This document shows positions 235-34,545 of a stretch of DNA of 64,000 nt, piece after piece; within the stretch, counting starts at the first letter, position 1; each line of letters opens with the position of its first letter. This DNA comes from Paratrimastix pyriformis. Taxonomy: Eukaryota; Preaxostyla; Paratrimastigidae. Below the pieces are notes generated by a model, which worked only from the letters and a program-made list of their open reading frames with translations, was not told the DNA's origin and made no database searches. Where the stretch lies: the NCBI GenBank assembly GCA_027972325.1, contig JAPMOS010000016.1, forward strand, positions 1-64,000, written 5' to 3'. The position numbers and the translations under genes were made by a program.

Positions 235-3200
235 GCTGGCCCGTGCGGGCCAGTTCGAGGAGGCCCTGCGGACACAACTTCATGGTGAAGAAGAACAAGG
301 ACTACACCCAGTGCGTCCGGATCCGGGTCTCGATGGGCAACATCGCCTTCGAGCAGGGCAAGTACCCCCAGGCGGCCAAGATGTACCACATGGCCATGGA
401 CTCCATCCCCCAGAGCAGCAAGGAGATGAAGTCCGCCCACCCCGCCACCCCGCCACCCGCCACCCGCCCACCCGCCCACCCTTGGTGGCCCGCGGTGCCT
501 CACTGGGCGCCCATGGGCCGGCGGGGCGCAGGTACAAGATCCAGCGGAACATCGGGCACACCTACGTGGCCCAGCACCAGTACACCGAGGCCATCGCCGA
601 GTACGAGGGCGTCCTCGAGGAGCACCCCGACCTCGCTTCGGGTCCGCCCCCCAACACCCGCCCCCGCTCCCGCACGCTCCCCGCCCGCCCTCCGTTTTGC
701 TGCTCCAAGGGCGGCCCATCCGCGCGGCATCCTCACTGCACCCCCCGCACACCCCGCACACCCCGCACACCCCGCACACATCCATCCACGCGGGCAGCCT
801 TCAACCTGCTGCTGTGCTACCGGGCGCTGGGGGACAAGGCCGCCATGAAGGACGCCTTCACCCGCCTGCTGGCCATCGAGCAGCAGCGCCTGCAGGGCCC
901 CGCGGCTGCCCAGCCCCAACCCGGCCAGCAGGGTCCGCAGCACAGCACACAGGCACACAGCACACACAGCACACACAGCACACAGACACGCACAGCACGC
1001 AGCCAGCATGCAGCCAGCACACAGCCAGCACACAGCCAGCACAGCACACAGGCACACAGGCACACAGGCACACTGCCAGCACAGCACCGGACTCGGCTTG
1101 ACTGGGGGGCTGGTGTGGGTGCGGGCCGTGGGGCGCATGGGGGCAGACCCGTCGGAGCTTGCGGGGGCGGTGGACCCGCACCCCGGCGAGAAGCCCGACA
1201 AGCCCGGCATCGCACCCGACGAGCTCACCGTCGAGCTCCGCGCCCGGTCCGCACAGCGCCGCTCCCCCAGCCCAGCCCACCGCACCGCACCGCGCACCGC
1301 TCCCCGGGAAGAGCGGGAGTCGGCGGGTGGACACTGACCGCTGGCGGTGGGATGGCGGGGGTTTTGCGGGGCACCTTGGCTGGGCCGTGGCCGGGGGGCT
1401 GGGTGGGGGCAGGCGGACGAAGGCCGAGAAGTACATCATGGACGCCTCCAAGCTGATCGCCCCCCTGATCGAGGCCGACCCGCCCGCCGGCTTCGACTTC
1501 GTGGTGGCGACCCTGAGGTCGGTCCCCCCGCTCCCCCACCCGCACACTGGGCGGCTCGGCTCCCCCACCCGCACACTGGGGGGCTGGAGCCTCACCGGGA
1601 CACTGATGGACGGGTGGATGGGCGGGTGGATGGGCGGGTGGATGGGCGGGTGGATGGGCGGGTGGATGGGCGGGTGGATGGGCGGGTGGATGGGCGGTGG
1701 ATGGAGCGGTGGATGGGCGGGTGGATGGGCGGTCGGCAGGCACGCGGGCTACCACCAGCTGGCGGGGCAGCTGGAGCTGGGCAAGGCCGTCGAGCTGCTC
1801 AGGCGCCACGACCACGAGAAGGCCCGCCGCCCAGCCCTTCCATCCCCTTCCATCCCCTTCCATCCCCTTCCATTCGATCCCCGTCCCGCCTGCGTCTCTC
1901 TCTCCCCCCCCCCCCCCCCACCCGTTGTCGTTCGGTGGCCCGTGCCCCCACCCTGCTCCTGCCTGCCCTGCCCTGCCCTGCTGGTGGGGGGCCACTGGTT
2001 GGTGGCTGACCGTTGGCGCCTCTGCCCGCCCTGCCCTGACGGCGGCCCCCAGGCGCTGGAGACGCTGCGCAGCTTCGAGCAGCGCGACGAGGCCCTCGCC
2101 CAGAAGGCCGCCTGCAACCTGGCCTTCGTCTACTTCCTCGAGGGTCCGCCTGCATGCCCCCATGCCCCCATGCCCCCATGCCCCCATGCCCCCATGCCCC
2201 CATGCCCCCATGCCCCCATGCCCCCATGCCCCCATGCCCCCATGCCCCCATGCCCCCATGCCCCCATGGCCATATGCCCATGCCGCCCCTCCCGGCTCGT
2301 CCCGGGGCGCATCTGCCTCTGCTGCTCCGGCGGCTGGTCTGTGGACTCCATCCTGATGGGTGCGGGGTCCCTCCCGGGTGGGCTGGTGGGGCTGGTGGGG
2401 CTGGCGGGCTGGCGGGCTGGTGGGCTGGTGGGCTGGTGGGCTGGTTGGCGGGCTGGCTGGCGGGCTGGCTGGCGGGCTGGCTGGCTGGGGGCAGGGGACA
2501 TGACCAACGCCGAGAAGTACGCCCAGATGGCCGTCGACGCGGACCACTTCAACGCCCTGGCCCTCGTCAACCTCGTCCGCACCCGCTGCCCCAAAATGCC
2601 CCAAAGTGCCCCAAAGTGCCCCAAAGTGCCCCAAAGTGCCCCAAAGTGCCCCAAAGTGCCCCAAAGTGCCCCAAAGTGCCCCAAAGTTCCCGTGCCTCCC
2701 GGCAGGGGCATTGGCAATTCCCGCTGACCTCCCTGGGCGGGGCCGTGTGGTGGGGCCGTGTGGTGGGGCCGTGTGGTGGGGCCGTGTGGTGGGGCCGTGT
2801 GGTGGGGCCGTGTGGTGGGGCCGTGATGGGGCCGTGTGGTGGGGCCGTGTGGTGGGGACCGTGTGGTGGGGCCGTGTGGTGGGGCCGTGTGGTGGGGCCG
2901 TGTGGTGGGGCCGTGTGATGGGGCCGTGTGATGGGGCCGTGTGGTGGGGCCGTGTGGTGGGGCCGTGTGATGGGGCCGTGGTGGGGCCGGGGCTGTGTGG
3001 CACAGGGGAACTGTAAATACGTGCGGGGCGACTACGGGGCGGCCCAGGGCCTCTACCAGCGGGCCCTCAGCGCCGACGACGAGTGCGTCGAGGCCCGCTA
3101 CAACCTGGGGCTGGCCCTGGGCCGGCTGGGCCAGCACGAGGAGGCCTACGCCTGCTTCGAGCGCATCCACAGGCGCCTCGGCACCTCCATCGACGTCATG

Positions 3201-4857
3201 TACCAGCTCGCAAAGACGTCCGCTCACAGACACACAGACCGCCCCGCACTCCCGGGGGGGTTCTGCCGGCCATGGGCATTGCTGACCGCACGGTGGCCTG
3301 GGGCGGGCGGGCGGGCGGGCAGCTGCGAGGCGCTGGAGGACCGGCGCCGGGCGGCCAAGTGGTACTCGCTGATCACCACCCGGGTGCCCACCGACGGCCG
3401 CATCCAGCGGCGCCTGGGCGAGCTCTGCCAGGACGAGGGCCAGGCCCTGCACTTCCACCAGGAGGTCCCGCCCCGCCCCTCCGGCCGCCGCCCCACCCCG
3501 CCCCGCCTGCCTGCCGCCGCCCGGCGCCCATGAGGGCTCGGCTGACCGGTTGGTGGGGTCGGGTCGGGTCGGGTCTCGGCCCCGGGGTTGTGCAGGCCTA
3601 CCGGTACGACCCCATCTCGCTGGACGTGGTGGCCTGGCTGGGGTACTACTTCGTCAAGTGCCAGATGTACGAGAAGGCCACGCCCTTCTTCCTGCGCGCA
3701 TCCATCATCGACCCGGCCGACGTCCGCCACGCCCCCCATCCTGCCCCTCCTTGCCATCACCCTCGCGGACAGCGCTTGCTCACTCGATGACCCCCTTCCC
3801 CCCGGAGCAGCCCAAGTGGCTGCTGCTGCTGGGCAACTGCCCCCGCAAGATGGGCGCCTACGAGCAGGCCCTGAAGATCTACCAGCAGGCCCACCAGCGC
3901 TTCCCCGCAAACCAGGAGGGTCCGTCCGCCCCGCCCCCCCCCGCCCCCCCGCCCCCCCGCCCCCCGCCCCCCGCCCCCACACACACACACCCTTTGCGCC
4001 TCGTTGTGTGCTCCTCTTTAATCCCCCGTGCCCCCGTGCCCCGTGCCCCCGTGCCCCGTGCCCTCCCGTGGTGCAGCGCTGAAGTACCTGCAGCTTGTCT
4101 GCCGCGAGTTGGGCCAGCAGGAGCTCTGCGCCCAGTACGAGCAGAAGCTCGGTCCGCCCCATCCCCCGGGACGCCCAGGCGCCGCAGGCACCCGCACAAC
4201 AGGGCATATCCACACAGGGGCATATCCACACAGGGGCATATCCACATCGGGGCATATCCACATCGGGGCATATCCACGCGCACCATGGGATCCCCTCACT
4301 CGTCCTCACCCGTTGCCTGCGACGCCTCGCCCGCCGGCATGCAGCGGCCCTGGAGCAGGCCCAGAAGCAGCCCCAGCCCCCAAGGCCGCGGCCCCCGAGC
4401 CGCCCCCCGAGGACGACTGTCCGCCCCGCCCCCTCCCCTCCCCTCCCATCCCCTGCGCCCTGGCTGCCCTCGCGCCGCACCCGGGTTCCCATACCATCCC
4501 CCCTGCCCCTGCCTGGCGGGCTGCAGTTTCGCCCCCGTCGCGCTCGTCGCGCCGTTCGGGGAGCAACCCGCGCCCGGCGGCCTCAGACCCGTCGCCGCCC
4601 CCCTCAGCCGGCCCCTCGCCCCCCACGGGCGGCCTGCCGCCCATCGGCGGCTCCCTGCGGGCCTCCAGGCAGACGCCCCCATCGGCCGGGGGCGACCGGC
4701 CCCTCGAGGCCGCCGTCCCAGCACGGGCCAAGGGCGCAATGCCCCAGCCGCCTCCGCCGCTGGGCGGCCGCCCTCGCAGCCGGTGGCCCCACCGGCCCGG
4801 CCGAGCGACGCGGTCTTCGGGGACGACGACGAGGAGGAGGACCTGCTCCCTATGTGA
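235..4857 (+). CDS. IFT88: IFT88 intraflagellar transport TPR protein (5' part missing)
   Basis: This is the TPR subunit of the IFT-B complex, needed to build cilia and flagella. Successive exons give TPR blocks in the same order as animal IFT88, for example MGNIAFEQGKYPQAAKMY, EKYIMDASKLIAPLIEADPP, EARYNLGLALGRLGQHEEAY and WLGYYFVKCQMYEKATPFF. The acidic tail ends DDDEEEDLLPM, like the DDLLP ending of the family. Proposed exons: 235-430, 532-641, 798-932, 1147-1246, 1413-1517, 1740-1821, 2053-2143, 2495-2574, 3006-3217, 3323-3464, 3596-3721, 3811-3919, 4077-4151, about 4359-4418, and 4527-4857. The N-terminal third lies before the window. One base is out of frame near 268-283, between LARAGQFEEAL and HNFMVKKNK. 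The junction into the acidic tail also does not phase cleanly, so the last two exons are tentative. The 1822-2052 intron starts GC rather than GT. Confidence 0.93.
933..1146 (+). repeat. CACAG-rich simple repeat inside an IFT88 intron
   Basis: Between about 940 and 1080 the intron consists of variations on CACAGCACACAG and CAGCACACAGC. The intron starts GTCCGC and ends GGCAG. The repeat is confined to the intron. Confidence 0.75.
1612..1737 (+). repeat. 12-bp minisatellite (GGGCGGGTGGAT)n in an IFT88 intron
   Basis: About nine tandem copies of a 12-bp unit fill most of the 1518-1739 intron, ending just before the 3' splice site GTCGGCAG. Confidence 0.9.
2154..2271 (+). repeat. 8-bp tandem repeat (ATGCCCCC)n in an IFT88 intron
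   Basis: About fourteen near-perfect 8-bp units start 10 bp after the 5' splice site GTCCGCC of the 2144-2494 intron. A second repeat family (2383-2488) occupies the 3' half of the same intron. Confidence 0.9.
2383..2488 (+). repeat. GGCTGGCGGGCT-type minisatellite in an IFT88 intron
   Basis: Tandem GGCTGGTGG/GGCTGGCGG units run to the 3' splice site of the 2144-2494 intron. Confidence 0.85.
2588..2691 (+). repeat. 10-bp tandem repeat (CCCAAAGTGC)n in an IFT88 intron
   Basis: About ten copies of a 10-bp unit sit in the 5' half of the 2575-3005 intron. The 3' half carries an unrelated 13-bp repeat. Confidence 0.9.
2741..2990 (+). repeat. 13-bp minisatellite (GGGGCCGTGTGGT)n in an IFT88 intron
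   Basis: Roughly eighteen copies, some shortened or carrying GATGG in place of GGTGG, fill the 3' half of the 2575-3005 intron. Confidence 0.9.
4199..4285 (+). repeat. 16-bp tandem repeat (GGCATATCCACACAGG)n in an IFT88 intron
   Basis: Five copies of a 16-bp unit, the last ones with CACATCGG, lie in the intron after 4151. Confidence 0.85.
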
Positions 4858-5457
4858 GCCCCCCCCGGCGCGTCCCGCCATCATCCCCCAGGGACCCCCT
4901 CTCCTCGGCTGTCTCATCCCCGCTCACCCATCCCCGGTCCCCGTTATCCCTCGTTCCATCCCCCCAGATCCGACTGTTTGATTCGCATCTTTTGAGGTCT
5001 CGGTCCGGTGGGCCGGCTGGGTGGTCAGCCGGCCCGCAGACGAAGACCCCGCTCCCTCCAGCTTCTCAGCCCTCCTCCTCCTCCTCCTCCCTCCCCTCCC
5101 CCCCCCGTCCCCTCTCCTCTCCTCCCTCCCCTCCCCTCCCTCCCTCCCTCCCCCCCCCCCCCCTCCCTCCTCTCGCTCCCACCGGGCCGCTTGTGTCTCC
5201 GTCTCTCCTCGTGACGGCTTGGCCGTGCCCAAGAAGGGCTCCGCCATCTTCTTTCCTTTGCTCAGGCGGCTCTGCGCCCGGCGGGCGGAGATCGTCGTGT
5301 TGGGCCAGAGGGAGGCGCTAGGGCCAGAGGCAGCAGGGCGCTGGGCGGAGATCTGCTGTCGGCCATCGGGTGGGCGCAGACGACGGGACGGTCACGTCCA
5401 TCAATCGCCGAGCCGGTTCCGCGCAGGTGCGAACCGGCGCCGATGGGGCGGCCCCTC
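4858..5457. other. Convergent intergenic region IFT88/RCE1, pyrimidine-rich
   Basis: Both flanking genes end here. A C/T-rich simple-sequence block runs from about 5060 to 5180. I see no gene, RNA gene or clear polyadenylation signal in the remainder. Confidence 0.6.
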
Positions 5458-6578
5458 TTACCAGTGAGGCGACTCGAAGAGGGCCGGCCAGGTCATGGGG
5501 CCCGCCAGCAGGCAGAACCCGACGATGCCCGCCACGTAGAGGCCCATCAGGGTGTACCCTGAGGAGAGGGCGCGTGCAGGGTGAGCGCCGGATCGGGTCG
5601 GGCGGGTGGGGGAGGAAGAGAAGAGAGTGGGCTGGATGCGGCCGAGGACATCGAGGCGGGGGAAGCCCATCCAGTTGCAGAAGGTGTGCGCGAGGAAGGG
5701 ACCCGCCACGTAGCCTGCATGCCCCCGGCAGCCGGGCCGGTGCGCATTAAACAGCATCAGCGATCCGCGATATGGGGAGTGGGGGGGCCAGACCGGTGCG
5801 GAGGAAGAGGAATGTCGAGTAGAAGCCGAAGATCGAGGTGATGACCAGCTGTGCAACTAAAGCCGACGGCCGAGGGCGGTGGCGGTGGCGGTGGCGGTGA
5901 GCAGTCCTGCGATGGCTGGTGGAGGAGACGGACCGAGGGAGGGCAGCGTGTGGAGCTTCTCGCCCGTCGGGCTGCGTTCGATGAAGTGATGGAAGTGGGA
6001 CAGCGAGAACACGACCGCCCCAAAGGTCATGGCCACCAAGGCGTTCGCAGCGGGCGATGCGATGTGAGCCTCGTGCAAGAGCGCGCACAAACAGCCCCGA
6101 TAGACGATCTCCTCGGTCAGTGGGGCCACGATGTAGAAGCGCAGCCAATAGACGTTGGTCAGGCACTTCCACACGCGGCTCGGAATGGGGGTCGTGTCCT
6201 CGAAAAGTTCTTCCCAACTGAGCAGGTACCATTGGACAAGCGGTCCCAGGAAAAGAATGGCTGTGAGGAGGAGAGGAAGGAGGCACCCCAGGAGAAAAGA
6301 GGGCCAATCCCGAGGCAGAAGGCCTATGAAAGAAAGGTCGATCCCCTGTCCCGAGTTTGGTATGCGATGGAGCTGAATAAACAGACAAGAAGGCCATGAA
6401 CGTACGCTATGGAAACAACCGAAGCCACTCCAACAGAGATGAAGCGGCGAACGATTTGATCGGGTTCCTCCCCAAACAGGGTATTCCGAGCGCAAACAAT
6501 CCACCATACATAAAGTGATGCCACATAAAATACCGCCAGTGCCAAACTGCGGAGGAAAGCCAGGAGGAGTTCCTGCAT
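5458..6578 (-). CDS. RCE1: RCE1-like CAAX prenyl protease 2
   Basis: This is an ER-membrane type II CAAX endopeptidase that removes the -AAX tripeptide from prenylated proteins such as Ras and Rho. The catalytic motifs are present: APLTEEIVYRG (EExxxR), FSLSHFHHF and HTFCNWMGFP. Several hydrophobic segments fit a polytopic membrane protein, including GCLLPLLLTAILFLGPLVQW. Proposed exons (descending): 6578-6387, 6345-5934, 5856-5794 and 5714-5458. Introns of 41, 77 and 79 nt start GTCTGT, GTCCGT and GTCTGG. The last exon carries a family-unlike linker (about 5575-5630) that stays open and might be a further intron. The start ATG at 6576-6578 precedes a hydrophobic segment. The gene is divergent from NOMO, with 76 bp between start codons. 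Confidence 0.92.
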
Positions 6579-6654
6579 CCTGTTTCACAAGAAGAGTCTC
6601 CTTTGCACCGGTCGATCCCGCAGCGGCGAAGCGAGAACAAAACCCCTTCACCGC

Positions 6655-9600
6655 ATGGCTTCGGGAGTCACACGCGCATTTGTGATTCTTTCCGCTCTCA
6701 TTCTCTGTCTGGGCGTTTCCAATGTTTCAGGTGATGTTGGTCCGCCGCAATTTCACCACTCATTTGCCATCTTACGCACGACTGTCGCTGCCCATTTTCT
6801 CCCCAGTCGGTTGCAGCGGAACGATTAAAGCTTCTACAACCATGGAGCGTTTCTTGGCAGAGAACGACAGTGATTTGTCCCAGATCTCTGTTTCTCTTCT
6901 GACTGCTGACTCGGTGACTGTCCGCGAGAGCGTTGAGTGTGACCCGACTGGCTATTTCTTCCTCCCCGTTGATACCCCCGGAAATTACATTCTGAAAGCA
7001 AAACGTGAGGGTTGGGCATTTGAGCCGGAAGCAATCCCCGTCCAGGTTTGTCCCAACCCGCACCCTCGCAATGATTTCATCTATATCGTCCGTCTGTAGG
7101 TCACTCAGACCGAATGCAACAAGGGGAAGGATGTTGCGTTTGCCTTTGCTGGTTTTGCCATTTCTGGCAAGGTCATTCCCCGCGCCGCCCGCCCGCACCC
7201 CACCACCGCTCCGCCCGCCCCACCACCGCCCATTCCACCCCAACAGAGCTCGTACACGCCCAGCCCGCACGCAGCTCGTCCACACAGCGTCCACCAGCCG
7301 ATCTTTCCATCATCGCATCACTTTGTTCTTTCCCACAGGTTCTGGCCAGCGACGTTTCCACCGGTCTCTCGGGTGTTGACGTGACCCTTTATGACGCGAA
7401 GAAGGCCGTCGTTGCGCGCGGGCAAAGCGGCGCCGACGGCGTTTTCACCTTCGGCAAGCTTCTCCCCGGAACCTACAGCGTGGTTGCCTCGCACCCCTCC
7501 TGGGTGATGGCCGAGCCCTCTCTCCGCATTGTCGAGCTCTCTTGGGGCAGCACCTCGATCCCGACTCCTTTCCTTGTTGCGGGATTTTCTGTCGAGGGTG
7601 ACGTCAACACCCAGGGCGAGGTTTGTCCTGGTCCTTCCCGTTTTCCAGTTCACCCTCTCCTCCAGCCTTTCCAGGGCATGCGCGTTTTTTTGATCCCCAA
7701 GGAGGCCCCCCGTGCTCTCTGCGAGCCGGTTCCCTCTGATGTTGAAGCTCCTCGGGACGCTGTTTGCATGGCCACCACCGACGGGAAGGGCCACTTTGTC
7801 TTCAAGGGTGTTCCCAGTGGCTCCTACATGGTCCAGCCCCACCGTGCCGGCGGCGCCACCGTCTATGACATTAGCCCCCCCTCGGCCCCCATCACTGTCC
7901 AGCACGGTTTGTCTTCCTCTGCCCTGTTTGCTTTATGCCCACTTCCCCCGACAGCCTCTGCTCGCCTGAGCCCCTTCATGGTTCGTGGCTTTGCCGTCTC
8001 CGGCCAAGTTGTCGATCTGGCGGGGAAGGGCCTCGATGGTGCCGAGATCCTCGTTGATAAGAAGGTCATCACCACGAGCGATAAGAATGGGTCTGCGCCT
8101 TTCCCTCGCTTGGGTCCAACGCTCACGATCGTTTGCCCCATCAGCTTTTTCTCGATCGATTCTCTCAAGACGGGCGCTTACTCTTTCTCGGCCCAGCTGC
8201 CTCACTACCAGTTCGAGTCCCGTCGCGTCTCGATCTCGCCTTCTTCCTCCAAGATTGCTCCCCTTCATGCCGTCTCGGTTGAGGTTTGCGGAACCGTCCA
8301 GATCCACCCAGCCCGCGCCGGCCGCGCGATTATGCTGGAGTCCGGCCAAAAGACTGTCACCCTGAAGACCGACGAGAAGAACACTTTCTGCACCTTCCTG
8401 AGCCGCGGGACCCACACCTTCAAGCCCCAAGTGGCAGCCGAGGAAACTGCCGCTGGCGTTGTGGTCAACCCTGCTTCTCGCTCCGTTCAGGTTTCCGCGG
8501 GCCCCGTTCTTGATGTCGATTTCACCCAGGCCCTCGTCCAAGTGAAGGGGTCCATCAGCTGCCTCCGCGCTTGCCCCGCCGACCTTCACCTGCAACTGGT
8601 TTCTCGCGGGCGGACCATCAAGACCACCGCCTCTGCCTCGGGTGAGTTCGTCTTCCAGGGCGTCCCCCCTGCTGCCTACTCGCTGACCGTTGATGCCCCT
8701 CAGTTCTGCTGGGACAAGCCCCAGCAAGCCGTCCAGGTCTCCCTGACGGGCGTCGAGGGTCTCCGCGTCTCCCAGGTTGGCTACCAGCTCAACTTGGTCT
8801 CGTCCCACGCCACCCCGGCCATCCTGTCCCATGAAGGCGAGGCCGACCGCGAGATTATGCTGCCTGCTGGTCCCCACTCCGTTTGCGTGACCGCCCCTGG
8901 CCGCTACTACGTCGCCCCCAAGGGCTGCATCCAATTCGACCGCCCGAGTTACTACATCAACACTGAGTCCTCCGCTGAGCCTGCCCAACTCAAGCTCGCC
9001 CGTTACCAGGTCGAGGGAACCGTCCAGATTACCTCCAAGGATCTCCCCAAGCACCTGGCCATCCTCTCGCTTTCCCGCGGGGCCCCCTCGGACATTGTTG
9101 TGGCCACCCCGGCCGGCGAGGGCGTCTACCGCTACACCCTGACTCTGGCTCCCGGCCAGGAGGTTACCCTGACCCCCATCACCTCTTACACCCCCATCGA
9201 GAGCATCGTTCCCGAAGCCGCCGAGCAGAAGGATGTCTGTTCACTTTGTTCTGATTTGTTGCGAGTGTCCAACCCTTGGTCATTAGATGGGCCTCCTCTT
9301 CTACCCCCCTTCAGTCAGCTTCTCCCTGGTTGCCCCCGCCGCCACTGCCGACAAGCAGTCCTGCCCTGCGCCCATTCCCACGATTGCCGGTCGCACGGGT
9401 CTCTTTGTTGAGGGAACCTTGAACCCTCACGTCGCCGATGCTCGCGTTTGCCTGCACGCCGCCGATGCCGATGAGGAGGCTGCGCCCCTGCAGTGCATCC
9501 AGACTTCCGAAACTGCCGGCTACCGGTTTGGCCCCCTGATGGACGACCGGAGCTATGTTGTGGTCTGCTGTTCCTTTCATGCCAAGCCCCATCCCATCCC

Positions 9601-11091
9601 GCTTTTCGGGTGGTTGCAGCGTGTCACGAAGGAGGGCTACGTCTTCACCGCCGCCGAGGGCGAGGAGGGGAAGGCCCGCAATTTCGTCACGGCCCGCCTC
9701 GCCCAGGCCACCGTCAAGGTGACCCTCCCCAATGGCACCCCGCTGGCCGGCGTCCTCCTGACCTTCTCCTCGCAGAAGGGCTACCGTCGCAACGCCCAGA
9801 CTGACGCTAACGGTCCGTTTCGTCTCGAGCATCGTGGCCCATCATCTCATTTTCCCCGCGGCAGGTGAGTTTGTCTTCGGTGGCCTGGCTCCTGCTCGCT
9901 ACTACCTGCGCTCGTCCCTGAAGGAATATGCCTTCGAGCCCAACAACCTCTACTTCGAGCTGACTGCCGGCCAGCAGTACCCCATCGAGGTCAAGGGCAC
10001 CCGGGTGGCTTTCACCGCCTACGGCTCGCTGGCGTACCCCAACGGCGAGCCCGCCTCGGATGTGGTGATGGCTCTGTACCAGGGCTCGGTCTGTCCCGCC
10101 ATCGTCAATTTGCCTCCTCCTCATCTCTTGTTTCCAGTCTCTGCAGGACGAGGTTGCCACTGACGAGAAGGGCAACTTCCGCCTGCGTGACCTGAAGCCC
10201 AGCATGGAGTATGTCATCGCTCCCAAGGTCGGTCAGGCGAGCACCCACAGGACACTTGATCCCAGCGACACCCCGCCTCACCTCGATTTTCATGACCTTT
10301 TTCTCCTCGCCCTCCCTTTCTCAGTCTCCCATGCAGACCACCATGCCTCCTCAGCGCCGCCTGGTGATGCCCTCCAACGACGTGTCCGACCTTTCCATGG
10401 TGCTCGTTCCCACCCCCACCTATGGCGAGATTGCCGGTACTCTGACGGTCAACGCCGTCCCCGCGGCCAAGCAAGCCGCCGGCGCTGTCTCGATCGAGGT
10501 GTGCGCCCAGAAGAACCCCGCCGTCCCCCTCCAGACCTACACCATCCCCTCGGTGGCCGAGGACGTGGCTCCCTTCCTGATCGCCAAGGTTCCCCTCCCG
10601 GGCGTCTACGTCGTTCGCGCCAAGCTCGCCCAGGGCTACAAGTCTGTCGGCTTGTCACGACACCGGTTTCTTCACCTTTCGCTCTTGCTCGCAGCTTCAT
10701 CGTCTCGGACTCCGTCCAGGTGGCCATCCTCAATGGCACCCACCCCCAGGCCTTCCTCCCCCTGACTCTCTCCCTCCAGACCCGCGAGGCCCCCCACGAG
10801 GCCGCCAACACCCGCGGCCCCATCTATCTCCTTGTCGTCCTCCTTGTCGCTGCCCTGGGCTACGGCGTCTGGCTGGGCCTGACCGAGCGCGAGGACATGC
10901 CCCTCGCTTTCCTTGCCCCCGTCTTCCGGGCCCTTGTTGGGAGCGTCCGGTCGACCCTCGAGACCCGGCCCAAGCGCGACCACAAGAAGCGCGACCACAA
11001 GGAACGCTCGCCCAGCCCAGCCCCTCGGGGCTCCTCCACCACCACGGGCACCTCGGGCGACATCCGCAAGCGCGCCTCCTCCCCTCAGTGA
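6655..11091 (+). CDS. NOMO: NOMO (nodal modulator) ER membrane protein
   Basis: NOMO is a lumenal beta-sandwich-repeat protein of the ER multipass translocon (with TMEM147 and nicalin). A signal peptide (ATG 6655) is followed by VVGCSGTIKAS, which matches the mature N-terminus of animal NOMO. Repeats follow in family order, for example LASDVSTGLSGVDVTLYD, GLLFYPPS and DEKGNFRLRDLKP. The C-terminus has one TM helix (IYLLVVLLVAALGYGVWLGL) and a basic cytosolic tail. Proposed exons: 6655-6739, 6807-7045, 7100-7171, 7339-7620, 7675-7906, 7955-8090, 8145-9234, 9287-9562, 9620-9812, 9865-10088, 10138-10227, 10325-10653 and 10695-11091. The introns are mostly 41-97 nt and start GTCCG, GTTTG, GTCTG, GTCGG or GTCA. 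The gene has moderate GC throughout, unlike its neighbours. Confidence 0.95.
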
Positions 11092-12242: not shown

Positions 12243-12282
12243 TTGTTGGGTCCTCAACCAAAGCTCTACTCGCTCTCACGTT

Positions 12283-22395: not shown

Positions 22396-22418
22396 CCACA
22401 CAGGACCACCGCGAATCG

Positions 22419-22974: not shown

Positions 22975-23048
22975 GTGCTCTGACTACTCCTTCTTCCCCT
23001 TGGGCCAGCATGTTTTCTCCCCCTGTTGTGTTGTGTCTTTTTTTTGTC

Positions 23049-24763: not shown

Positions 24764-24874
24764 TGATTTACCATTCTGCTCGCGTGTGGCAAACAAGTGT
24801 TTTTCTTCTCCGCGTCGGTGAGGGCGGATCTCTTAGATGTTGATGGCCGACGAGCGAACCGAAACCCAACTGGT

Positions 24875-26946
24875 TCAAAGCGCTTCGATGATGATTGTTT
24901 TGAGTTCCTCGGCCGTCAGGGGGATACAATTTCCTATGATGGAGGGAAGATTCGGAGGCTGGATCAACGAGGCCAGCCACAGACCCTTCATCGAGGATGC
25001 CTTCGCGCTTCCCTGAATGATTTGTTGGAGCTGTTCCTCCTCACCCGTGACGCCCATCTTGCGCAGCGAGGGGATGCGCAGCTGGTTGCGGGCAAGCTGG
25101 GACAAAAATCAATCCGAGGGCCCAGCAGGGCACCCCGACGAAAGCAGACATCCAGGATCCACTCGACGCCGTCCTCAGGCTGGGCGTCGGGCCGGCCCGT
25201 GACGATCCTGGCCACCTCGGTGTACCTGCGCGAGCGGGCACCCACATCCATGAGCCGGGCCGGGGCGTGGGTGCGCAGGCAGCGACCTTGCGAGGTGGTC
25301 CTCGACGGCCCGCTGGGCGACCGTGCTGGGCAGGACGGTGGCCGGGTCGGAGGCCGAGGCCGAGGCGACCATCCGGCGCAGCTTGGCCACGTTGGCCCGC
25401 ATGACGAACGGAAGCAGGGTCCCGCAGATGGCCCCGTGGGGGGCCCCCGTGATCCCACCCAGGGTCTGCGGAGCGGCGGGGCAGCGGTCAGGTCAGGTCA
25501 GGTGCCGGAGCATGCCGCGGCGGCGGGGGCGGCGATGTTGGTGTCGGGCAAGGGGAGGGAGCACACAAGGGCAAGTCAGACCCCGGCGAACCCGTGGACG
25601 GCGCCCAGCTTGGCGTTGGACAGGCCCAGGCCGCCGTAGAGGCTGCCGGCGGGCGGGGGACGAAGTGGAGTGTAAAGGACAACGGGGAGAGTCGGGTCAG
25701 CGGGGTACAGCCCAGCGCAGCTGTCGGGCAGAGGGGGGGCGGAGGAGCAGCAGACCTGGCCAGGCACATGTTCTCGCGGGCCTCCAGGTCGTCGGGGTGG
25801 TCATACGCCCTGGGCACCCAATCCCACATCCAGTCCGCGACCCAGTCGAAATGCACATGATGACACCGGGTCCGTGGCCGTGAGGGTGGACGACCGGGTG
25901 GATGTGTGCGGATGGGCGGATGGGATGGATGAGCGGATGGCGACCGTGCGGACCGCTTAAGGGAATCGGCCGCGCGCCGGACGCCGTCAAGGCACAGCGT
26001 ATCCACCAGGGCAACGGGGCTGCAGGAGGTGTACGGCTCGATGCATTGGGTGAGGGCGTCCATCCCTGGTTGGGGAGAGGGGCCAGCGGAGGATGCTGAT
26101 GAGGCCGCGGACGCAACCGATGGCCGGATGGGAACAGCCTGAGGGATGAGCAGACCCGAATTCGCCGTGATGGTGGGGGGCAGCCCGGTGGTGAGCAGCG
26201 GGTCGATGATGGCCACGGACGGCACCAGCCTGGGCCCCCACCGACAAGCCCCACCCGAACCGAACAGGCCCTGTGTGGACCGGAGGAAGGGGGAGGGACC
26301 GAGCAGACAATTCCGAGCGGATGCTCACCTTGACCTTGTGCTCGGGCAGCGAAAGGACGGCGTTCTTGGTCACCTCGGTCCCTGTGGCGGTTCATCAGCG
26401 ACAGGGGAAGGGAGACGGGAGCAGTCAAGACCGGTGCCGGCCGTGGTGGGAATACAAATCAACGGGGCCCCTGGGCGAGTCAGCTTTTGGCCGCGGCCGT
26501 AGATTTCGACGTAATCCATCAGCGTCCCTTCATTGGTGAGAAGGCCCGAGACCGCCTTCCCGAGATCGAGCGAGCTCCCACCTCCGATGGCGATCACAAA
26601 GGTGGCCATAACTCGGCGAGCAATTTCAAGGGCCTCTTCGACATCATTGATCGAGGGTTCGCCCGTGACCGGATAATTGGCATAGTTTATGTGGTGATGC
26701 TGAAGAACATCAAAAATGACCGTGGCACGTGAAATAGTCTTGCCTGTGGTTGGACATTAACACAATCAGAATGGGTTGCCAAACTGACCGGTGATGACAA
26801 TGGCGCTTCCACTTGAACCATATTCCCGGCAAAGGTCCCCGATTTTGGTCAGGGATCCGCGACCGAAAATAATCCTTGTCAAAAAGGTCGATGATGGCTT
26901 GCGACAATCGTGGAACAGACCGTGGAACACGGAGATCGAATTGCAT
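24875..26946 (-). CDS. Iron-containing alcohol dehydrogenase (Fe-ADH family)
   Basis: This is an NAD(P)-dependent alcohol dehydrogenase of the group III (Fe-ADH) fold. Family motifs in order are RIIFGRGSLTKIG, IAIGGGSSLDLGKA (nucleotide binding), PTTAGTGTEVT, SIRSELLVPSVAIIDP, GMDALTQ, GAVHGFAG and GAPHGAICG; it ends MKGNCIPLTAEEL. Proposed exons (descending): 26946-26921, 26874-26789, 26743-26432, 26381-26309, 26229-26156, 26065-25954, 25809-25756, 25642-25582, 25465-25287, 25225-25150, 25096-24985 and 24933-24875. All but one intron start GTCYG or GTCNN. The usual metal ligands are Asp-His-His-His; here the Asp and the two later His are present, but the position four residues after the Asp is Gln. 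The likely role is fermentative alcohol or aldehyde turnover, suggesting low-oxygen life. The substrate cannot be read from sequence. Confidence 0.93.
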
Positions 26947-27028
26947 TTTGGCTGGGGGATCAAAAATAGTGCGTATTGCCTATTATGGTATTGTCGATTA
27001 AGTCGGCGCACTCTCCTCGTCCTTGTTG

Positions 27029-27759: not shown

Positions 27760-29035
27760 TCAGGCCTTCAGGGGGACGCGCGCGACCGGCGGTCTGCGGG
27801 GTGCGGCCCCCGTGGCCACGGAAGATACCGACCGCCCGGTGCGGATCGGGCCGCTCAGGGGAGGACGGCTCGCGGTCTTGGCGGCCCCCGCCGTGGCTGT
27901 GGCGGCCCGGCCCAAGAGGAACTGCCCGCCAGGCAGCGGCGGGTGTGGAGGGCCGCGTGCACTCGAAGACGCCGCCGGGGCTGGAAGGGGACCGTGCTCG
28001 GAGGCGCTCCGCCGCATGCCGCCCCTGGATACGACCTGGCCCGCGGTGGTCGTTGCGTGAGGCCGCGAGCTCGCAGGGGCGCCTCCCGGGCCTCCGACCC
28101 GGTTGTACAGGAGGTGGAGTCCCAAGGTGGGCGAGGCGATGGGATGCGGGACGGGACCCCGCGATTGCGACAGCGAGCGGGTGGGTGGGGCATGGCCACG
28201 GGAGGGCGGTGCCGGGGTCAACCCGCGGGCTGGCCGACAGCCGGCTGCGGATGCCGTCTTCATGGTGGCCGAGAGTGGGGAAGGGGCAAGCCCTTGCCGG
28301 GCAGCCAGGAAGCGGGACGCGAGGGACTGCTGCATCAGCTGCTGCTGGGCCAGGGGGTTCGGGGGCGGCGGAACGAGGGTCTTCGAGCTGATCGTCAGTG
28401 GAGGAGGCGGGACGGCCTTCAGGAAGGGCAGTAAGGATGCCGAAGCCGAAGGGGCGGAGGCCAAGCCCGGGTGGCCCTCGGTGGCGAGGAGCGACGGGGC
28501 TGCTGGTGCACCCGGGGCGGGGGGGCGGGCGGCCAACAAGTGCTGCCGCCACTTGGCCAGCTGCTGGAAGAAGGCCGAGTTGGGGTTTGCGCGCGGGTGC
28601 CGTTGCCGCAGAGACCGGAGAGCGGCCGTGGGCGTCGCATTCTAAGCGGGAAAAAACGGTCATGCCGGTGATGCCGGTGATGCCGACCTCTTTGAACATG
28701 AGGTATGCGCAAACGATGGTTGAACTGCGGGATATACCCGCAGCACAATGAACAAGAACAGTCCCTCCGGTTGTAAGTGCGCTGTCAATCCAAGCGCATG
28801 CGGCGGGAAAATGACTATAGAGATCAGATGAGAGGGTATCCTCGATGGTGATTTTTTTGTAAGCGATACCCGGAAATTGTCGTACGCCGCAGTTCAAAAC
28901 GGAAAAAATGTGCGTCACACCAAGTTTTGTCAGAAAGTCAATGTCTATCGCGGCTGGATATCCGCTGATGAAAAAATGTGGTCGAACTTCATCGCAATTG
29001 TAGTCAGCACTGAAGCGAACGTACGGCTTCTTCAT
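27760..29035 (-). CDS. Dual-specificity protein phosphatase with long disordered tail
   Basis: The catalytic domain contains the Cys-phosphatase signature VHCAAGISRSSTI, an upstream general-acid loop region (KKITIEDTLSSDL), and the post-catalytic ATPTAALRSLRQRHP/NPNSAFFQQL helix pair typical of atypical DSPs. After about residue 170 the protein becomes a Pro/Ala/Ser-rich tail of about 230 residues without recognisable domains. Proposed exons (descending): 29035-28688 and 28641-27760, separated by a 46-nt intron starting GTCGGC. The start ATG at 29033-29035 fits the family. GC jumps from moderate to very high at the intron. The target is unknown; it is divergent from the LRR/coiled-coil gene by 107 bp. 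Confidence 0.92.
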
Positions 29036-29142
29036 TCAATGCCAGGCGATCGTCCCCGGCTTTTTTGACGTCCGATCTGAGACGAGTCGAGATAACGCAA
29101 AGGCCCCTATCCACAATCCTCCCGTTTCGAATTTCATCCTTG

Positions 29143-32100
29143 ATGAAAGGGGGCCTATCAATCGAGTTTTCCAACGATCTTTTTTTGCAACGCCAAAAAG
29201 ATACCGGCGAAATCCCCACCCCTGATGAAGTCGAGGTGTTAAGAAGGCGAATCAAAACTGGCGGTTCAGGTCTCGAATTTTCGGTCCCTTAGCCGGCATC
29301 CGCTGTTCTTCCCTTTTCCCCGAAAGGCCAATTACTGTTGAGGGAATGCCGGCTTGGCGTCAATTCGGCCATGTCTATCGCGAAGAATCTGAAAGATAAT
29401 CCCACCATTACGAGCATCGATCTCTGCGGGAATCGTCCGTCCGGGATCCGACCCTTGGACTATCCTCACGTGATGTATCGCTAGTTATCGGGGATATCGG
29501 GTGCATGGCCATGATGCAGCTTGCCAAATCCAACGATCGGATTGTGGAATTTAACATGGAGGTCCGTCTGGCCTGCCCCGTCCTTGTCCCGTTCACCATG
29601 GGCGTCACCCAATAGGCGAACGATATTGGCGACGAAGGCGCGATCGCAGCGGGTGTCGAACTTGAGACGAACCGCTCGGTCTGCCTTGCCCCTCCCGTCC
29701 CGTCCCGTCCACCTTCACACCTTTGGGGGCAGCTCCGGGTGCTCCTGCTGGGGAGCAATCCCACCTTCTGGCACGACAACAACATCGGCCCCCAGGGTGG
29801 CATCCGGATCGCCGCGGTCTGCAGTGCTCCCCCAGGGCCGGGCCGGCGCCCACAGCCAGCACCATCACGGACGGCCCCATCGGGACATCCGGGACATGGC
29901 CTGCCTGCTCACAACATCCTGCCGCCCTGCCGCCATGACCACCACCGACCCCCCCCCCCCCCCCCCCCCCTCTGGCGGCGTGGATTCCCTGGTGTGCAGG
30001 CCCTCCGAGACAAGAACAGCGTCCTGACGCGGCTCTCGCTGAGCCGGAACAAGATCTTCGAGGCCGGGACCGAGGTCGGCCTCTCCCCCGCCCCGTCCCC
30101 CCTCCCCAAAGGACCCTGGCCCCCATCTCCGGACGAACCCTGGCCCCGGTGTTTGCTCACTCTTCCCGACCGGGGCGCAGGCTGCGGCCGAGTTCGAGCC
30201 ATGCTGCGCCAGAACCGGACCCTGGCCCGGCTCGACCTGGGCACCACCACCCTGGGCAACGCCGGCACGGCCATCGTCGCCCCTCCTCCCCCTCCTCCTC
30301 CTCCCCACCCCCACTCCCCACTCCCCCTCCCCACTCCCCACTCCCCACCCCACCCCCACTCCCCCACTCCCCACTCCCCTCCCCACTCCCACTCCCACTC
30401 CCCACTCCCCTCACTCCCCCACTCCCCTCCCACTCCCCCCCCACCCCCCACTCCCCACCCCCACTCCTCCGAAGTGACTCTCAGGCTGCCCGGTGTAACG
30501 TGATGATCATCTGCGTCCCCCCCGGGTCGGCATGGCATGGGGCGGGCAGGCGCTGCACGTGAACACGGCCTTGCGGGAGCTGGACATCAGCGACAACCGG
30601 ATGGGCTACACGGGGGCATACGAGGTGGCCCAGATGCTGGTCGTCAACCGGACCCTGACCTCGCTCAACCTCTCCTCCAACCCCTTCGGGGCCCGCGGCG
30701 CCGACGAGCTGGCCGCCGCCCTCAGGGTCCGCCCCGCCCTCCCCCCAGCGCCTCGCAGCCCCGCCCGTGGCGTCCCGAATAGCGCGATGACAGCCTCCCT
30801 CGACACTCCCCTCTGCCACCCGCCTGCCTGCCCTGGGCCCGAGCAGCACAACCACAGCCTGGTCTCGTTCGACCTGACCGGGTGCCACATCGAGGACTTC
30901 GGCCTCTACACCATCGCCGGCGCCCTCCGCAACACGGTCCGGCACCTGACCTCTCGCTGTCCCTCGCCCCCGTCTTCATCACCCCTGTCTTCATCACGCC
31001 CTGCTTCCATCACCCCTGTCTTCAACACCCCTGTCTTCATCACCCCCCGCTTCCATCACCCCCCGCTTCCATCGCCCCGCTCACCCTGACGCTACCGACC
31101 AGGAGGCCACCAACCTGGTGCTGACCACGCTGGCCGTGGGCGACTGCGGCATCGGGGCCATCGGGGCCCGGGCCCTGGCCAACGCCCTCGACCCGGGCCT
31201 GGACGAGACGCCCGCATGCGCCCTGACCACCCTCTACATCGACCACAACCCCCTCGGGGCCGAGGGCGCCAGGGCCCTGGGCGCCGCCCTGCACCGGTCC
31301 GCCCTGCCCTGCCACCCCTTGGAGGCCATCCTTGACGCCCCGCCCCCGTTGGGGCCGAGAAGACGAGTGGGGCCCAAGCGCCAATGGGGTGGATGGGCGG
31401 GTTTGTGGGGGGGGGGGGGGGGTGGCCACGACCCTGACGGAGCTGAACATGTCGGGCTGCAAGATCGACGACACGGGCGGCCTGGCCCTGGCCGCGGCCC
31501 TTGAGGAGAACCGCACCCTGACCAGCCTCCACCTCAAGGACAACTTCCTCTCCGAAGGTCCGGTGGGATTCCGGGGTGGGATGGACCAGAGGGATCACCG
31601 GGGTGGGATGGACCAGAGAGAGGCATCACCGGGGGAGGCATCACCGGGGTGGGATCGACCAGAGAGAGGCATCACCGGGGGAGGCATCACCGGGGGAGGC
31701 ATCACCGGGGTGGGATCGACCAGAGAGAGGCATCACCGGGGTGGGATCGACCGGGGGCGTGTCGTGCGGGCAGCCTGCGGGGACGCCTTCTCGAACTTCG
31801 TGGCCCAGAACACGGTCCTGCTGCGCCTCGACGTGCGCGGGTCGCTGCTGCCCCGCCAGGTGGTGGGCGCCCTGGAGGCAATCTGCAAGCGGAACGCCGA
31901 CGCCAAACGGGTCGGCCGCCCCTCCCGCCCCTCCGCCATCCTCATATCCCCCCGCCGGTCTCTTCGTCCCATCTTTACGACCGGGCACACGGGGGCGCGC
32001 AGGCGGAGCACCCGACCCAACTGCAGGAGCAGATCTACCTCCTCCGCCACCACGTGGTCGGTACCCCCACCCCCGTCCCTGCCCAGCCCTGCCCAGCCCT

Positions 32101-33751
32101 GCCCAGCCCTGTCCAGCCCTGCCCAGCCCTGCCCAGCCCTGCCCAGCCCTGCCCAGCGGCCCGCCCCCGCCCGCTCCTCGGCTGCTGGCTGGTTCAGGCG
32201 GATGCCTCATCGCCCTCCGTGTCGTGCCGCCCGGTGTGCGCAGGGCTACCTGCCGGGCGTCCAGCGGGACCTGCAGCGGGTCTCGCGGGCCCTGAAGGAG
32301 GCCGAGGACGAGCGGCACGAGGTGCAGGCGGCCATCCAGCGCGTCAAGGTCCCCCACCGCCACACGCACCGCCACGGACGGACGGACGGACCCACCACCG
32401 ACAGACTGGCACAGAGGCACGGGCAGACGCACAGACGCACAGACGCACAGACGCACAGACACACAGACACACAGACACACAAACACAGACACGCGCGTCC
32501 GCCCCTTGGTCCTCGGGTTGAGACTTGGGATGGTTGGTCGGCATCGCCCCGACCACCTGCCCGCACACCAACGACCAATCTCCCCTCCGTTGCCTGCAGG
32601 CCGAGGAAGCGGTCGCGGTGGCCGAGCAGGAGCAGCGGCTGGCCATCCAGAGGCAGCAGATGGAGCAGCGCAGCGCCACCCTGCAGGGCAAGGAGAAGGC
32701 CTGCCCCACCCGCCCCGCCCTGCCACCCACTCACCACCATTCTCTCGGGTGTGACGCTGCGGGTGGGGCAGGAGCTGGCCGATGAGAAGGCCCGCCTGGG
32801 ATCCATCACGGACGACCTCTCGGCACAGCTCAGGAGGGGCGACGAGGTCCGCGCCCCAGCCGGAAGCTTCCCAATGCCCTCTCGCCTCATCCCCATGAGC
32901 ACCACTCACCCTGCCTCCCGCCTGGTCCCGGTAGATGCGCCAAGCGGCCGTCGAGCGGATGCTGATGTTGGGCGAGGACCTCGCCGCCCTGCATGCGGCC
33001 ACCGAGTCCTGCTACCAGTCCGCACCCCGGCCGCTGCCCGCCCCGGTTCCCCGCTTGCACACCCACATGACGCAATCCTCCCTCCCGCCCGCCCCTCGGT
33101 TGGCAGGGACGCCCAGCACCAGGTGGCCGCCCTGACGGCCCAGGCGCAGGACTTCCGCAAGAAGGGCGAGCGGCTCAGGCCAAAATCGGCAGCCCCAAAA
33201 CCCGCCGCCGTCAAGCCGGCCCCCGCCCGGCCTGCCACGGCTGCCGTCCGACCAGGTCCGGCTCATCGTCCTCTCGCCGCCCCCTCACGGTGTCGCCGCC
33301 CCCCCTCCACCACCAGCCACGGCCAAACCGGCCGCCAAACCGGCCGCCAAGCCCGCCACCGCCAAACCCCGTGCCCCCTCCGCCAAGCCGGCTCCTCCGA
33401 GGCCCTTGCCCCGGGTGGCCGCGGCGGTTCCCCCGGTGGTGGTTCCCCCCCCGAACCCGCCACCCGCCACCCCGGCCAGCCTGTCCTTCTCGAGCCCCTC
33501 GGCCGCCGAGATCATCCCACTCTCCACCCGCGCCCTGCAGCCCGCACGCGAATCGGCCCGGGGCGATGCTCCCCCATCGTCTCGCCTCAGCGGGCGCATG
33601 GGGGGAGCACCCACCAGCACCCGCGGGCCCCTTCCGGCCACCCCAGCGGGCCGCAGTAGTAGCGGTCCGTCGTCGGGTGCGTGGAGCAACAAGAGTCACA
33701 CTGACCCGTTCCTTCGTAGGTTCTGCGGTCGGTCCTCCGGAGCTCAGGTAG
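29143..33751 (+). CDS. LRR plus coiled-coil protein (LRRC45-like arrangement)
   Basis: RNI-type LRRs occupy the first two thirds (for example ITSIDLCGNLIGDIGCMAMM, IVEFNMEANDIGDEGAIAAG, LRELDISDNRMGYTGAYEV, LTELNMSGCKIDDTGGLAL). A coiled coil follows (GVQRDLQRVSRALKEAEDER, LAIQRQQMEQRSATLQGKE), then a Lys/Pro/Ala tail. This order resembles LRRC45, a centrosome-linker protein, but orthology is not shown. Proposed exons: 29143-about 29270, about 29326-29434, 29485-29561, 29616-29678, 29733-29816, 30000-30074, 30181-30275, 30550-30726, 30847-30936, 31103-31296, about 31428-31557, 31774-31910, 32003-32056, 32244-32348, 32600-32698, 32772-32846, 32935-33017, 33107-33255, 33317-33664 and 33720-33751. 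The 32699-32771 intron is GC-AG. The exon near 31428 lacks a nearby AG, next to a poly-G run. Confidence 0.82.
30286..30472 (+). repeat. CCCCACTCC-type simple repeat in an LRR-gene intron
   Basis: Irregular CCCCACTCCC units fill the 30276-30549 intron. Confidence 0.8.
30960..31080 (+). repeat. CTTCATCACCCCTGT-type tandem repeat in an LRR-gene intron
   Basis: About seven 12-15-bp units of TTCATCACCCC and TTCCATCACCCC occupy the 30937-31102 intron. Confidence 0.8.
31565..31760 (+). repeat. GGGATCACCGGGGTGG-type minisatellite in an LRR-gene intron
   Basis: Interleaved units (GGTGGGAT, CGACCAGAGAGAGG, CATCACCGGGGGAGG) make up almost the whole 31558-31773 intron. Confidence 0.85.
32068..32156 (+). 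repeat. 10-bp repeat (CCCAGCCCTG)n in an LRR-gene intron
   Basis: About nine copies lie in the 32057-32243 intron. Confidence 0.85.
32380..32498 (+). repeat. Acag/ACAGACGC simple repeat in an LRR-gene intron
   Basis: GACGGACGGACGG, CACAGACGCACAGACG and ACACAGACACACAG units lie in the 32349-32599 intron. Confidence 0.8.
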
Positions 33752-34019
33752 CACTGGGATCCCCTTTTCTCTCTTTCCTCGATTTATTTATGTGGGCCGC
33801 TGTCAGTGCATTGTGTATGCCTCTGACGTTTCGTTTGACATTTCGCGTTTCTCGCTCGTCGGCTGTTGTATTCTTGTCGATAATCGGTTTTTCTCTCTTC
33901 ATTTTTATGAACCCCTTCCAAATTTCTCCAAAAATCTTGGGGTTTTGGCTCCCGTGGCTCTCACACCTCACACCATAGCCAATCAAATTCGTAAAAACTT
34001 TCTGTCTTGCTTTTGCAGA
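33752..34019. other. AT-richer spacer between LRR gene and four-TM gene
   Basis: A frame from ATG 33790 encodes a hydrophobic 62-residue peptide with no known match. It could be a 5' exon of the following gene, since a TTTTGCAG acceptor sits at 34011-34018, but no donor with the local consensus joins it convincingly. Confidence 0.35.
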
Positions 34020-34545
34020 ATGCCTTTCAAAAATATTCCGGTTGTTTTCACCGCAAATGTCCTCACCCTCGCGTTGTCTGACTGGATCCTCCCAATTTTC
34101 AACCGTGATCGAATGATTTTCTAGGATTGGGCAAATTCCACACTTTTTGTCCTTCCTTCTTGCCTTTATCGCATATGCTGCTGGTGGCCTTTCAGAAAAG
34201 TTGAACACATGTGTCCTCTGGATTGGGCTTGTTTCACTCCTTTCAATACTTTACGGGATCCTGTCGTCGTTCCTCTGCTCCCCCACCCACCATCTGACGG
34301 GTGAAAAGAAGTCGCACCGTCATCGGGCCAGCGAATGGTTTTCTTGGCTGGTCAGTTCGACCCTCCTGGGTCTTGGAATCGCGTCCCTCCTCTTGCTCGA
34401 GGGAACGAAGGTCTGCCGGGTTCCCAAGCGCCTGACCACCACACACAATCCTAGTACTGGGGAACAGCGGCTGTGGCTGGGATTTTCTCAGTGATCTCCT
34501 TCCCATGGCACATGTTCATCTCATTCGCAGGCAATTTTTGTTTGA
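34020..34545 (+). CDS. Small four-TM membrane protein, hypothetical
   Basis: Joining exons 34020-34075, 34125-34410, 34455-34490 and 34531-34545 gives a protein of about 130 residues with four hydrophobic helices (around IPVVFTANVLTLAL, FLSFLLAFIAYAAGGL, VLWIGLVSLLSILYGIL and WFSWLVSSTLLGLGIASLLLL). A short His/Lys/Arg loop lies between helices 3 and 4. Introns of 49, 44 and 40 nt start GTCTGA, GTCTGC and GTGATC and end TAG, TAG and CAG. The last intron is the weakest because its donor is not of the local type. The protein family is not recognised. The ATG immediately follows an acceptor-like TTTTGCAG, so the true start may lie upstream. Confidence 0.6.

Follow-up and report, generated by a model that had tools for sequence, protein, structure and literature searches.

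The 5' splice-site code of the single-celled flagellate Paratrimastix pyriformis (Metamonada, Preaxostyla) has very probably been rewritten by a joint change of the U1 small nuclear RNA (snRNA) and of the intron donors in an otherwise ordinary U2-type spliceosome. In the stretch studied here, positions 1 to 64,000 of contig JAPMOS010000016.1 (the window, 64,000 nucleotides (nt) in length), introns begin with GTCYG (Y, pyrimidine) instead of the usual GTRAGT (R, purine). The assembly of this organism contains genes for U1, U2, U5 and U6, the 5' end of its U1 is complementary to these donors, and the canonical U1 11-mer is missing from it. Evidence throughout is genomic sequence, donors and U1 being known here from their genes alone, and we infer that the U1 genes are expressed and that their product binds the donors.

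The case for the donor pattern rests on 31 introns placed by proteins and not on ab initio sets. They comprise 23 introns of the window (12 in the gene for intraflagellar transport protein 88, IFT88, and 11 in a gene for an iron-containing alcohol dehydrogenase, ADH), four of PRPF8 and four of PGK. For their placement we used our own protein-to-genome aligner, in which introns run from GT (or GC) to AG and positions +3 to +6 have zero scoring. All 31 have the GT-AG ends of U2-type introns, though these ends were imposed, and none has a GTRAGT-like donor: with only the GT and AG ends required, 29 have C and two have T at position +3, and a purine occurs there in 0/31. The background frequency of a purine after GT is 43.5% in exons and 46% within introns, and the chance of finding 0/31 is about 1e-8. 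At +4 the counts are C14, T12, G4 and A1, at +5 G27, C3 and T1, and at +6 C15, T13, G2 and A1; the last exon base (-1) is G in 24/31 introns, and the acceptors have C at -3 in 25/31. A preliminary description of the window, made from its letters only, had reported a pyrimidine at +3 nearly always and G at +5, and this agrees with 31 and 27 of the 31 introns, respectively. Its further statement that the donors are almost only GTCCGC, GTCCGT, GTCTGC, GTCTGT or GTTTGT was right as to the pattern but too strict, the five hexamers accounting for 22/31 introns. Likewise, the pattern is not limited to positions 235..34545, where it had been placed, but fills the window and 19 loci on eight other contigs.

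When GC donors were also permitted, the organism's own GenBank models of IFT88 (P0001) and ADH (P0057) gave a GT donor in 23/23 introns, and all of them were GTC. With foreign proteins 27/31 donors were recovered, namely 9/12 in IFT88, 10/11 in ADH, and four each in PRPF8 and PGK. Human PRPF8 aligned to the P. pyriformis PRPF8 gene (G000:C456) placed 4/4 introns at GTC, and Thermotoga PGK aligned to locus L026 gave, in order, GTT, GTC, GTT and GTC, where both GTT donors are GTTTGT. In each of the five foreign ADH alignments ten of the eleven donors were recovered, the eleventh preceding their match, and one extra weak GTC intron appeared at 25313-25369; the foreign IFT88 (P0002) placed 15 introns, six of them with a GC donor, mostly in poorly conserved stretches. 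The gene models of the genome project were predicted with RNA-seq hints (PMC10703272), and they agree with the GTC donors in IFT88 and ADH. The GTCYG-type donor pattern in P. pyriformis is confirmed as real.

The GenBank P. pyriformis IFT88 and alcohol dehydrogenase match the window queries, which carry our exon joins, over the whole query at 95% and 85%, respectively. The two genes and their introns are as follows.

282..4156, plus strand: IFT88 gene, P0001 'putative Intraflagellar transport protein 88', 532/534 residues covered, 12 annotated introns
431..531, plus strand: IFT88 intron, donor GTCCGC, own P0001 and foreign P0002 concur
642..797, plus strand: IFT88 intron, donor GTCCGC, P0001 and P0002 concur
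933..1146, plus strand: IFT88 intron, donor GTCCGC, P0001 only; P0002 puts a GC intron at 888-995, conservation being poor here
1247..1412, plus strand: IFT88 intron, donor GTCCGC, P0001; P0002 concurs on the acceptor only
1518..1739, plus strand: IFT88 intron, donor GTCGGT, P0001 and P0002 concur
1894..2052, plus strand: IFT88 intron, donor GTCTCT as annotated, start disputed; P0002 supports 1822-2052 with the GC donor GCCCGC
2144..2494, plus strand: IFT88 intron, donor GTCCGC, P0001 and P0002 concur
2575..3005, plus strand: IFT88 intron, donor GTCCGC, P0001 and P0002 concur
3218..3322, plus strand: IFT88 intron, donor GTCCGC, P0001 and P0002 concur
3465..3595, plus strand: IFT88 intron, donor GTCCCG, P0001 and P0002 concur
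3722..3807, plus strand: IFT88 intron, donor GTCCGC, acceptor 3807 as annotated, 3810 by P0002
3920..4076, plus strand: IFT88 intron, donor GTCCGT, P0001 and P0002 concur
24875..26946, minus strand: iron-containing ADH gene including the stop codon, P0057 'putative alcohol dehydrogenase', 433/433 residues mapped, 11 annotated introns
26875..26920, minus strand: ADH intron, donor GTCTGT, P0057 only
26744..26788, minus strand: ADH intron, donor GTCAGT, P0057 and 5/5 foreign ADHs
26382..26431, minus strand: ADH intron, donor GTCTTG, P0057 and 5/5 foreign ADHs
26230..26308, minus strand: ADH intron, donor GTCTGC, P0057 and 5/5 foreign ADHs
26066..26155, minus strand: ADH intron, donor GTCTGC, P0057 and 5/5 foreign ADHs
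25810..25953, minus strand: ADH intron, donor GTCCGC, P0057 and 5/5 foreign ADHs
25721..25755, minus strand: ADH intron, donor GTCTGC by P0057 and 5/5 foreign ADHs; annotated end 25721, foreign ADHs favour 25643
25466..25581, minus strand: ADH intron, donor GTCTGA, P0057 and 5/5 foreign ADHs
25226..25286, minus strand: ADH intron, donor GTCGCT, P0057 and 5/5 foreign ADHs
25097..25149, minus strand: ADH intron, donor GTCTGC, P0057 and 5/5 foreign ADHs
24934..24984, minus strand: ADH intron, donor GTCTGT, P0057 and 5/5 foreign ADHs

In IFT88, the segment 1822-2052 (GCCCGC) is a plausible candidate for a GC-AG intron; the GenBank model reads 72 more bases as exon.

For the U1 snRNA, the assembly (56,060,509 bases in 495 contigs) was scanned with the Rfam U1 covariance model RF00003, and 41 of 992 candidates were scored. 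Eight U1 genes were found on eight contigs of up to 1.1 Mb, matching the model over positions 1-166 with a best E-value of 3.7e-13. All eight copies start with ATACAGACCTTG, and their U1 5' end is AUACAGACC instead of AUACUUACC; at the place where RF00003 members carry AUACUUACCUG, 8/8 copies have AUACAGACCUUG. In comparison to the Rfam consensus AUACUUACCUGG, U is replaced by A at nt 5 and by G at nt 6, and G by U at nt 11, without a shift. A pattern search in which nt 5 and 6 were left free and at most three mismatches were allowed returned the same eight genes and no other, and the canonical U1 11-mer ATACTTACCTG occurs 0 times in the 56-Mb assembly versus 57 times for the reversed control. 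In other respects the RNA is like canonical U1: besides the covariance along its length, stem-loop I with the GAUCA loop is present and a GCAUAAU region precedes the 3' stem-loop in the consensus alignment. Reading by eye against the Sm motif revealed an Sm-like AAUGUUUGG before the 3' stem-loop. The changed U1 5' end postulated in the preliminary description is thus borne out by all eight genes, which carry AG at nt 5-6 and are complementary to the donors.

The sequence CCCATAA is located upstream of 8/8 U1, 8/8 U2 and 4/4 U6 loci read (20/20); in the 16 U1 and U2 genes, all of which start with ATAC, its position relative to that start is -58 to -60. Since this spacing and the ATAC start are common to U1 and U2, the U1 5' end is supported independently of U1 models, and, judged by the common upstream element, the U1 genes look functional. 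A T-run together with CCCATAA was seen upstream of U1, U2, U6, the one U5 gene read and a U12-like gene described below (loci L001-L012 and L038-L047); in U6 the element lies farther out, at -66 and -67.

As in the canonical interaction, nt 3-11 of the P. pyriformis U1 are antiparallel with donor positions -3 to +6, and the predicted partner of the changed end is G/GUCUGU, with wobble permitting U at +3. With AG in place of UU at nt 5-6 and U in place of G at nt 11, G6 would read C at +3 (and U by wobble), A5 would read U at +4, C4 G at +5 and A3 U at +6. The mean duplex energy for the 31 donors is -7.62 kcal/mol with the organism's own U1 versus -3.34 kcal/mol with canonical U1, and the own U1 end, which is complementary to the genome's own donors, pairs better for 31/31 of them. 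If all 16 possible letter pairs at nt 5-6 are ranked, those with G at nt 6 occupy ranks 1-4.

Of the other components of the major spliceosome, the U2, U5 and U6 snRNAs and PRPF8 are present. U6 has the canonical AUACAGAGA in 4/4 copies with the ACAGAGA box kept, so that reading the U1 5' end and the U6 ACAGAG box side by side, the check suggested beforehand, gives a changed U1 in 8/8 and a canonical U6 in 4/4 copies. U2 is represented by nine full-length copies, of which three were read and have the usual branch-site sequence, and U5 by seven copies, one of which was read and has the usual loop GCCUUUUAC. Two sR5-like C/D small nucleolar RNA matches under the cut-off lie by a U2 gene (L038:152-215 and 219-273, minus strand). 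A METTL16-like methyltransferase (PF05971, NPPF motif) is encoded at G000:C332:38824-39153 (locus L036), and SNRNP27K keeps its YRQYMNRKG stretch, the M of which presumably corresponds to human Met141; the stretch is followed by an apparent further GTC donor, GTCGGG. We rejected the idea that the donor change stems from a lost METTL16 or SNRNP27K, since the METTL16-like gene and the SNRNP27K core are both kept. The METTL16-like gene occurs here in a metamonad, unlike in the Excavata sampled in PMC10581693, among which no METTL16 was found.

A U12-like snRNA gene (G000:C432:103343-103517, minus strand, locus L046) reaches 44.9 bits (cut-off 53), contains TAATGAGTAAGGAAAA and has CCCATAA upstream; as far as this sequence goes, a minor spliceosome is probably retained in P. 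pyriformis. The U12-type donor is GTATCC. Despite the U12-like gene, a minor-spliceosome reading of the GTCYG donors was rejected, because they are unlike this donor.

The donor was also learned without proteins. An unsupervised hidden Markov gene finder, whose input was codon usage, GT and AG only, was applied to the window and to 19 of the 20 loci fetched (the GC content is 68% in the window and 63% across the 20 fetched loci). Expectation-maximization led to the same donor, GTCYGY, whether it started flat or from GTRAGT, with C 0.77, T 0.14 and A 0.01 at +3 and G 0.68 to 0.69 at +5; the top hexamers were GTCCGC, GTCCGT, GTCTGC and GTCTGT. A weak form of the signal could be seen even before the donor was learned (in the last round C 0.54, A 0.04 and G 0.21 at +3, and G 0.40 at +5). 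GT donors had 1.22 bits at +3 to +6 versus 0.16 to 0.61 for the GC, GA, TG, CT, CA and AC controls. Among 108 ab initio introns of the window (one 'intron' at the window edge excluded), 103 start with GTY and 65 with GTYYG, but the learned donor matrix was used for them, hence these counts are not independent. Since the ab initio sets include false introns, our claim is based on the 31 introns described above. Among the 380 predicted donors of the window and the 19 loci there is a GTR minority of 34, which may be errors or U12-type introns.

A NOMO-like gene of the window shows similar donors in its ab initio model, such as GTTTGT at 7907 and GTCTGT at 9235.

6655..11091, plus strand: NOMO-like gene, ab initio model g3 at 7768-11091, upstream exons by eye, NOMO domains in Pfam

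A protein search with NOMO returned distant relatives only and no own annotated P. pyriformis protein; for this reason its introns were left out of the 31. Several introns of the window are, by eye, packed with short tandem arrays (e.g. 1612-1735, 2740-2990 and 45835-45990), so that the interior of introns seems to be replaced over time, whereas the donors persist.

Several results weigh against a joint change of U1 and donors. The best U1 match has 60.2 bits and is thus below the Rfam gathering cut-off of 69.5; therefore, we name the molecule a divergent U1-like RNA that would work like U1. U1-C was not identified in a profile search; the sole zf-U1 hit, first taken for U1-C, was rejected, as it lies ahead of a WW-like domain (23.8 bits, below the cut-off) and looks WBP4-like. 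By pair count the real AG at nt 5-6 (4.68) is only second to GG (5.13), which outranks it because C at +4 is common: 14/31 donors have this C, which cannot pair with A5 of U1. If any dinucleotide is permitted at the intron ends, exact GT-AG is found in 2/4 PRPF8, 1/11 ADH and 2/4 PGK introns; this total of 5/19 is far above chance, and the others slide by a few bases. In a test for the drop of coding signal per hexamer at 2183 GT sites, which is noisy in GC-rich sequence, non-coding sequence followed GTRAG in 6/27 cases (GTGAGT in 3/4) and GTYYG in 59/255, and the two kinds of site could not be told apart. Finally, we saw no compensation between +3 and +4 in the few clean introns available (74/380 kept; 5 vs 28 introns, p 0.63).

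The frequent C at +4 could reflect either weak constraint at this position or a modified nt 5 of U1. The latter, for example adenosine-to-inosine conversion of A5 by which nt 5 would read both C and U, is an addition to the joint change rather than a full rival, and we consider it rather doubtful. It would account for C or T at +4 in 26/31 donors, and the best fit would come from a G-like base at nt 5. The METTL16-like enzyme is present, and the known METTL16 target in U6, UACAGAGAA, resembles UACAGACCU of U1, so that N6-methyladenosine at A5 is conceivable; however, this methylation would not let A pair with C. Moreover, weak constraint at +4 together with local composition suffices as an explanation, +4 being mostly C in IFT88 (10/12) and mostly T in ADH (8/11).

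Alternatively, recognition of the donor could depend chiefly on U6 and proteins rather than on U1 base pairing, a mode proposed for Entamoeba; the altered U1 end would then be the result of drift in a contact that can be dispensed with. In line with this, the donors fit the ACAGA of U6, on average forming 3.68 of the five pairs possible at +2 to +6, U1-C escaped the profile search, and Entamoeba combines GUUUGU donors with the lack of a recognised U1 (PMC6018208, PMC13292270). Nevertheless this explanation is quite unlikely, since a drifting U1 end is not expected to be invariant in 8/8 copies nor to be complementary to +3, and G at -1 (24/31) and at +1 fits the unchanged C9 and C8 of U1. It is still less probable that the U1 genes stem from another organism in the culture or that a canonical U1 was lost from the assembly: the latter was binned and decontaminated (PMC10703272), but the eight U1 copies are spread over as many contigs of up to 1.1 Mb, their upstream element is also found at U2 and U6, and on five sampled U1 contigs (C24, C212, C388, C441 and C482; the tally leaves out C231, C349 and C495) ab initio donors comprise 101 GTYNG, 51 other GTY and 18 GTR. 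That GC-rich coding sequence and wrong exon joins mimic a GTC donor is hardly conceivable, for although GTC is frequent in exons (45% of GT), false introns occur in the ab initio set and GT-AG ends were imposed, foreign proteins recover most of the donors, the genome project's models with RNA-seq hints concur (PMC10703272), the control dinucleotides give no such consensus, and U1 matches the donors independently.

Together, these considerations favour the joint change of U1 and donors. In comparison to the canonical system, its U1 has AG and not UU at nt 5-6 and U and not G at nt 11, and its donors have a pyrimidine and not a purine at +3 and mostly a pyrimidine and not A at +4. The closest published donor seen is GUUUGU of Entamoeba histolytica, which likewise has pyrimidines at +3 and +4 and G at +5, is a near-complement of the U6 box and is identical to the two GTTTGT donors of PGK. 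However, Entamoeba is without a recognised U1 (PMC6018208, PMC13292270, PMC6085484), whereas P. pyriformis has eight U1 genes with a complementary end, and C dominates at its +3. ACUUACC at the end of U1 is regarded as all but invariant. Among 230 yeast genomes it is unchanged in the 227 species with a U1 candidate (PMC10581693). The +4U donors of Saccharomycotina resemble those of P. pyriformis in having exchanged A at +4 for a pyrimidine, but in the yeasts U1 stays the same and the shift tracks the loss of METTL16 or SNRNP27K; a change of U1 nt 5 to A was named there as a possible compensation and not found (PMC10581693). In P. pyriformis, in contrast, U1 is changed, and as the METTL16-like gene and the SNRNP27K core remain, its route was not the yeast route to +4U. 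Diplonemids and euglenids also depart from the usual donor. The diplonemids studied have U1 genes of the normal kind, beside which an alternative U1 was found in one species and none in another; their noncanonical introns and those of euglenids are without GT-AG ends and pair end to end (PMC12621601). P. pyriformis introns instead have GT-AG ends with a new consensus after GT, and no normal U1 was found in the assembly. Engineered U1 suppressors (Zhuang and Weiner 1986, cited in PMC11732430) are comparable in that a compensatory U1 change restores an altered donor; unlike them, the change described here is natural, is carried by every U1 copy found and corresponds to the donors of each gene tested. 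For Trimastix pyriformis, an Rpl7a intron of 172 nt was reported (PMC1201135). In the accessible parts of the literature searched (PMC10703272, PMC1501061, PMC1201135, PMC8767320, PMC6679479, PMC6018208, PMC6085484, PMC13292270, PMC12621601, PMC11732430 and PMC10581693; preprints and most subscription journals lay outside its scope) there is no account of this donor or of this U1.

According to the proposed mechanism, GUCYG donors would be selected by the changed U1 end and then passed to U6. The sequence UCUGU at +2 to +6 is the exact complement of the unchanged ACAGA of U6, and since U6 is canonical, the stretch AUACAGA is now common to U1 and the U6 box, so that one donor would suit both and would meet nearly the same letters twice. 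The donors may have slid to the U6 optimum, with U1 following, which is the likely order, but the reverse is also possible. A wider scenario, which we put forward tentatively and which may well fail in part, is that the U1 end has become a copy of the ACAGA box by which the donor is read twice, that the donors went to the U6 optimum before the two-base change of U1 in a natural genome-wide switch, and that GUUUGU of Entamoeba is read by a U1 with an altered end which was missed in searches for ACUUACC. The change is probably lineage-specific, since the oxymonad Streblomastix, a member of the same phylum, has A, U and G at +3 to +5 (PMC1501061).

The change in P. pyriformis is important for several reasons. 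The 5' splice-site signal belongs to the core of gene expression and counts as almost immutable, yet in this organism it appears to have been rewritten: each U1 copy found carries a natural two-base change, to which the donors of all four homology-tested genes correspond. It thus offers a natural experiment on how a code common to thousands of introns can move and whether U1 or U6 leads. Nucleotide 6 of canonical U1 is a pseudouridine. So is nt 5 (PMC10581693), and the change bears on what the pseudouridines at these two positions are needed for. Further, it provides a concrete route to seek 'missing' U1 RNAs in other protists. Last, it is a warning that the standard donor models of gene finders fail on such genomes.

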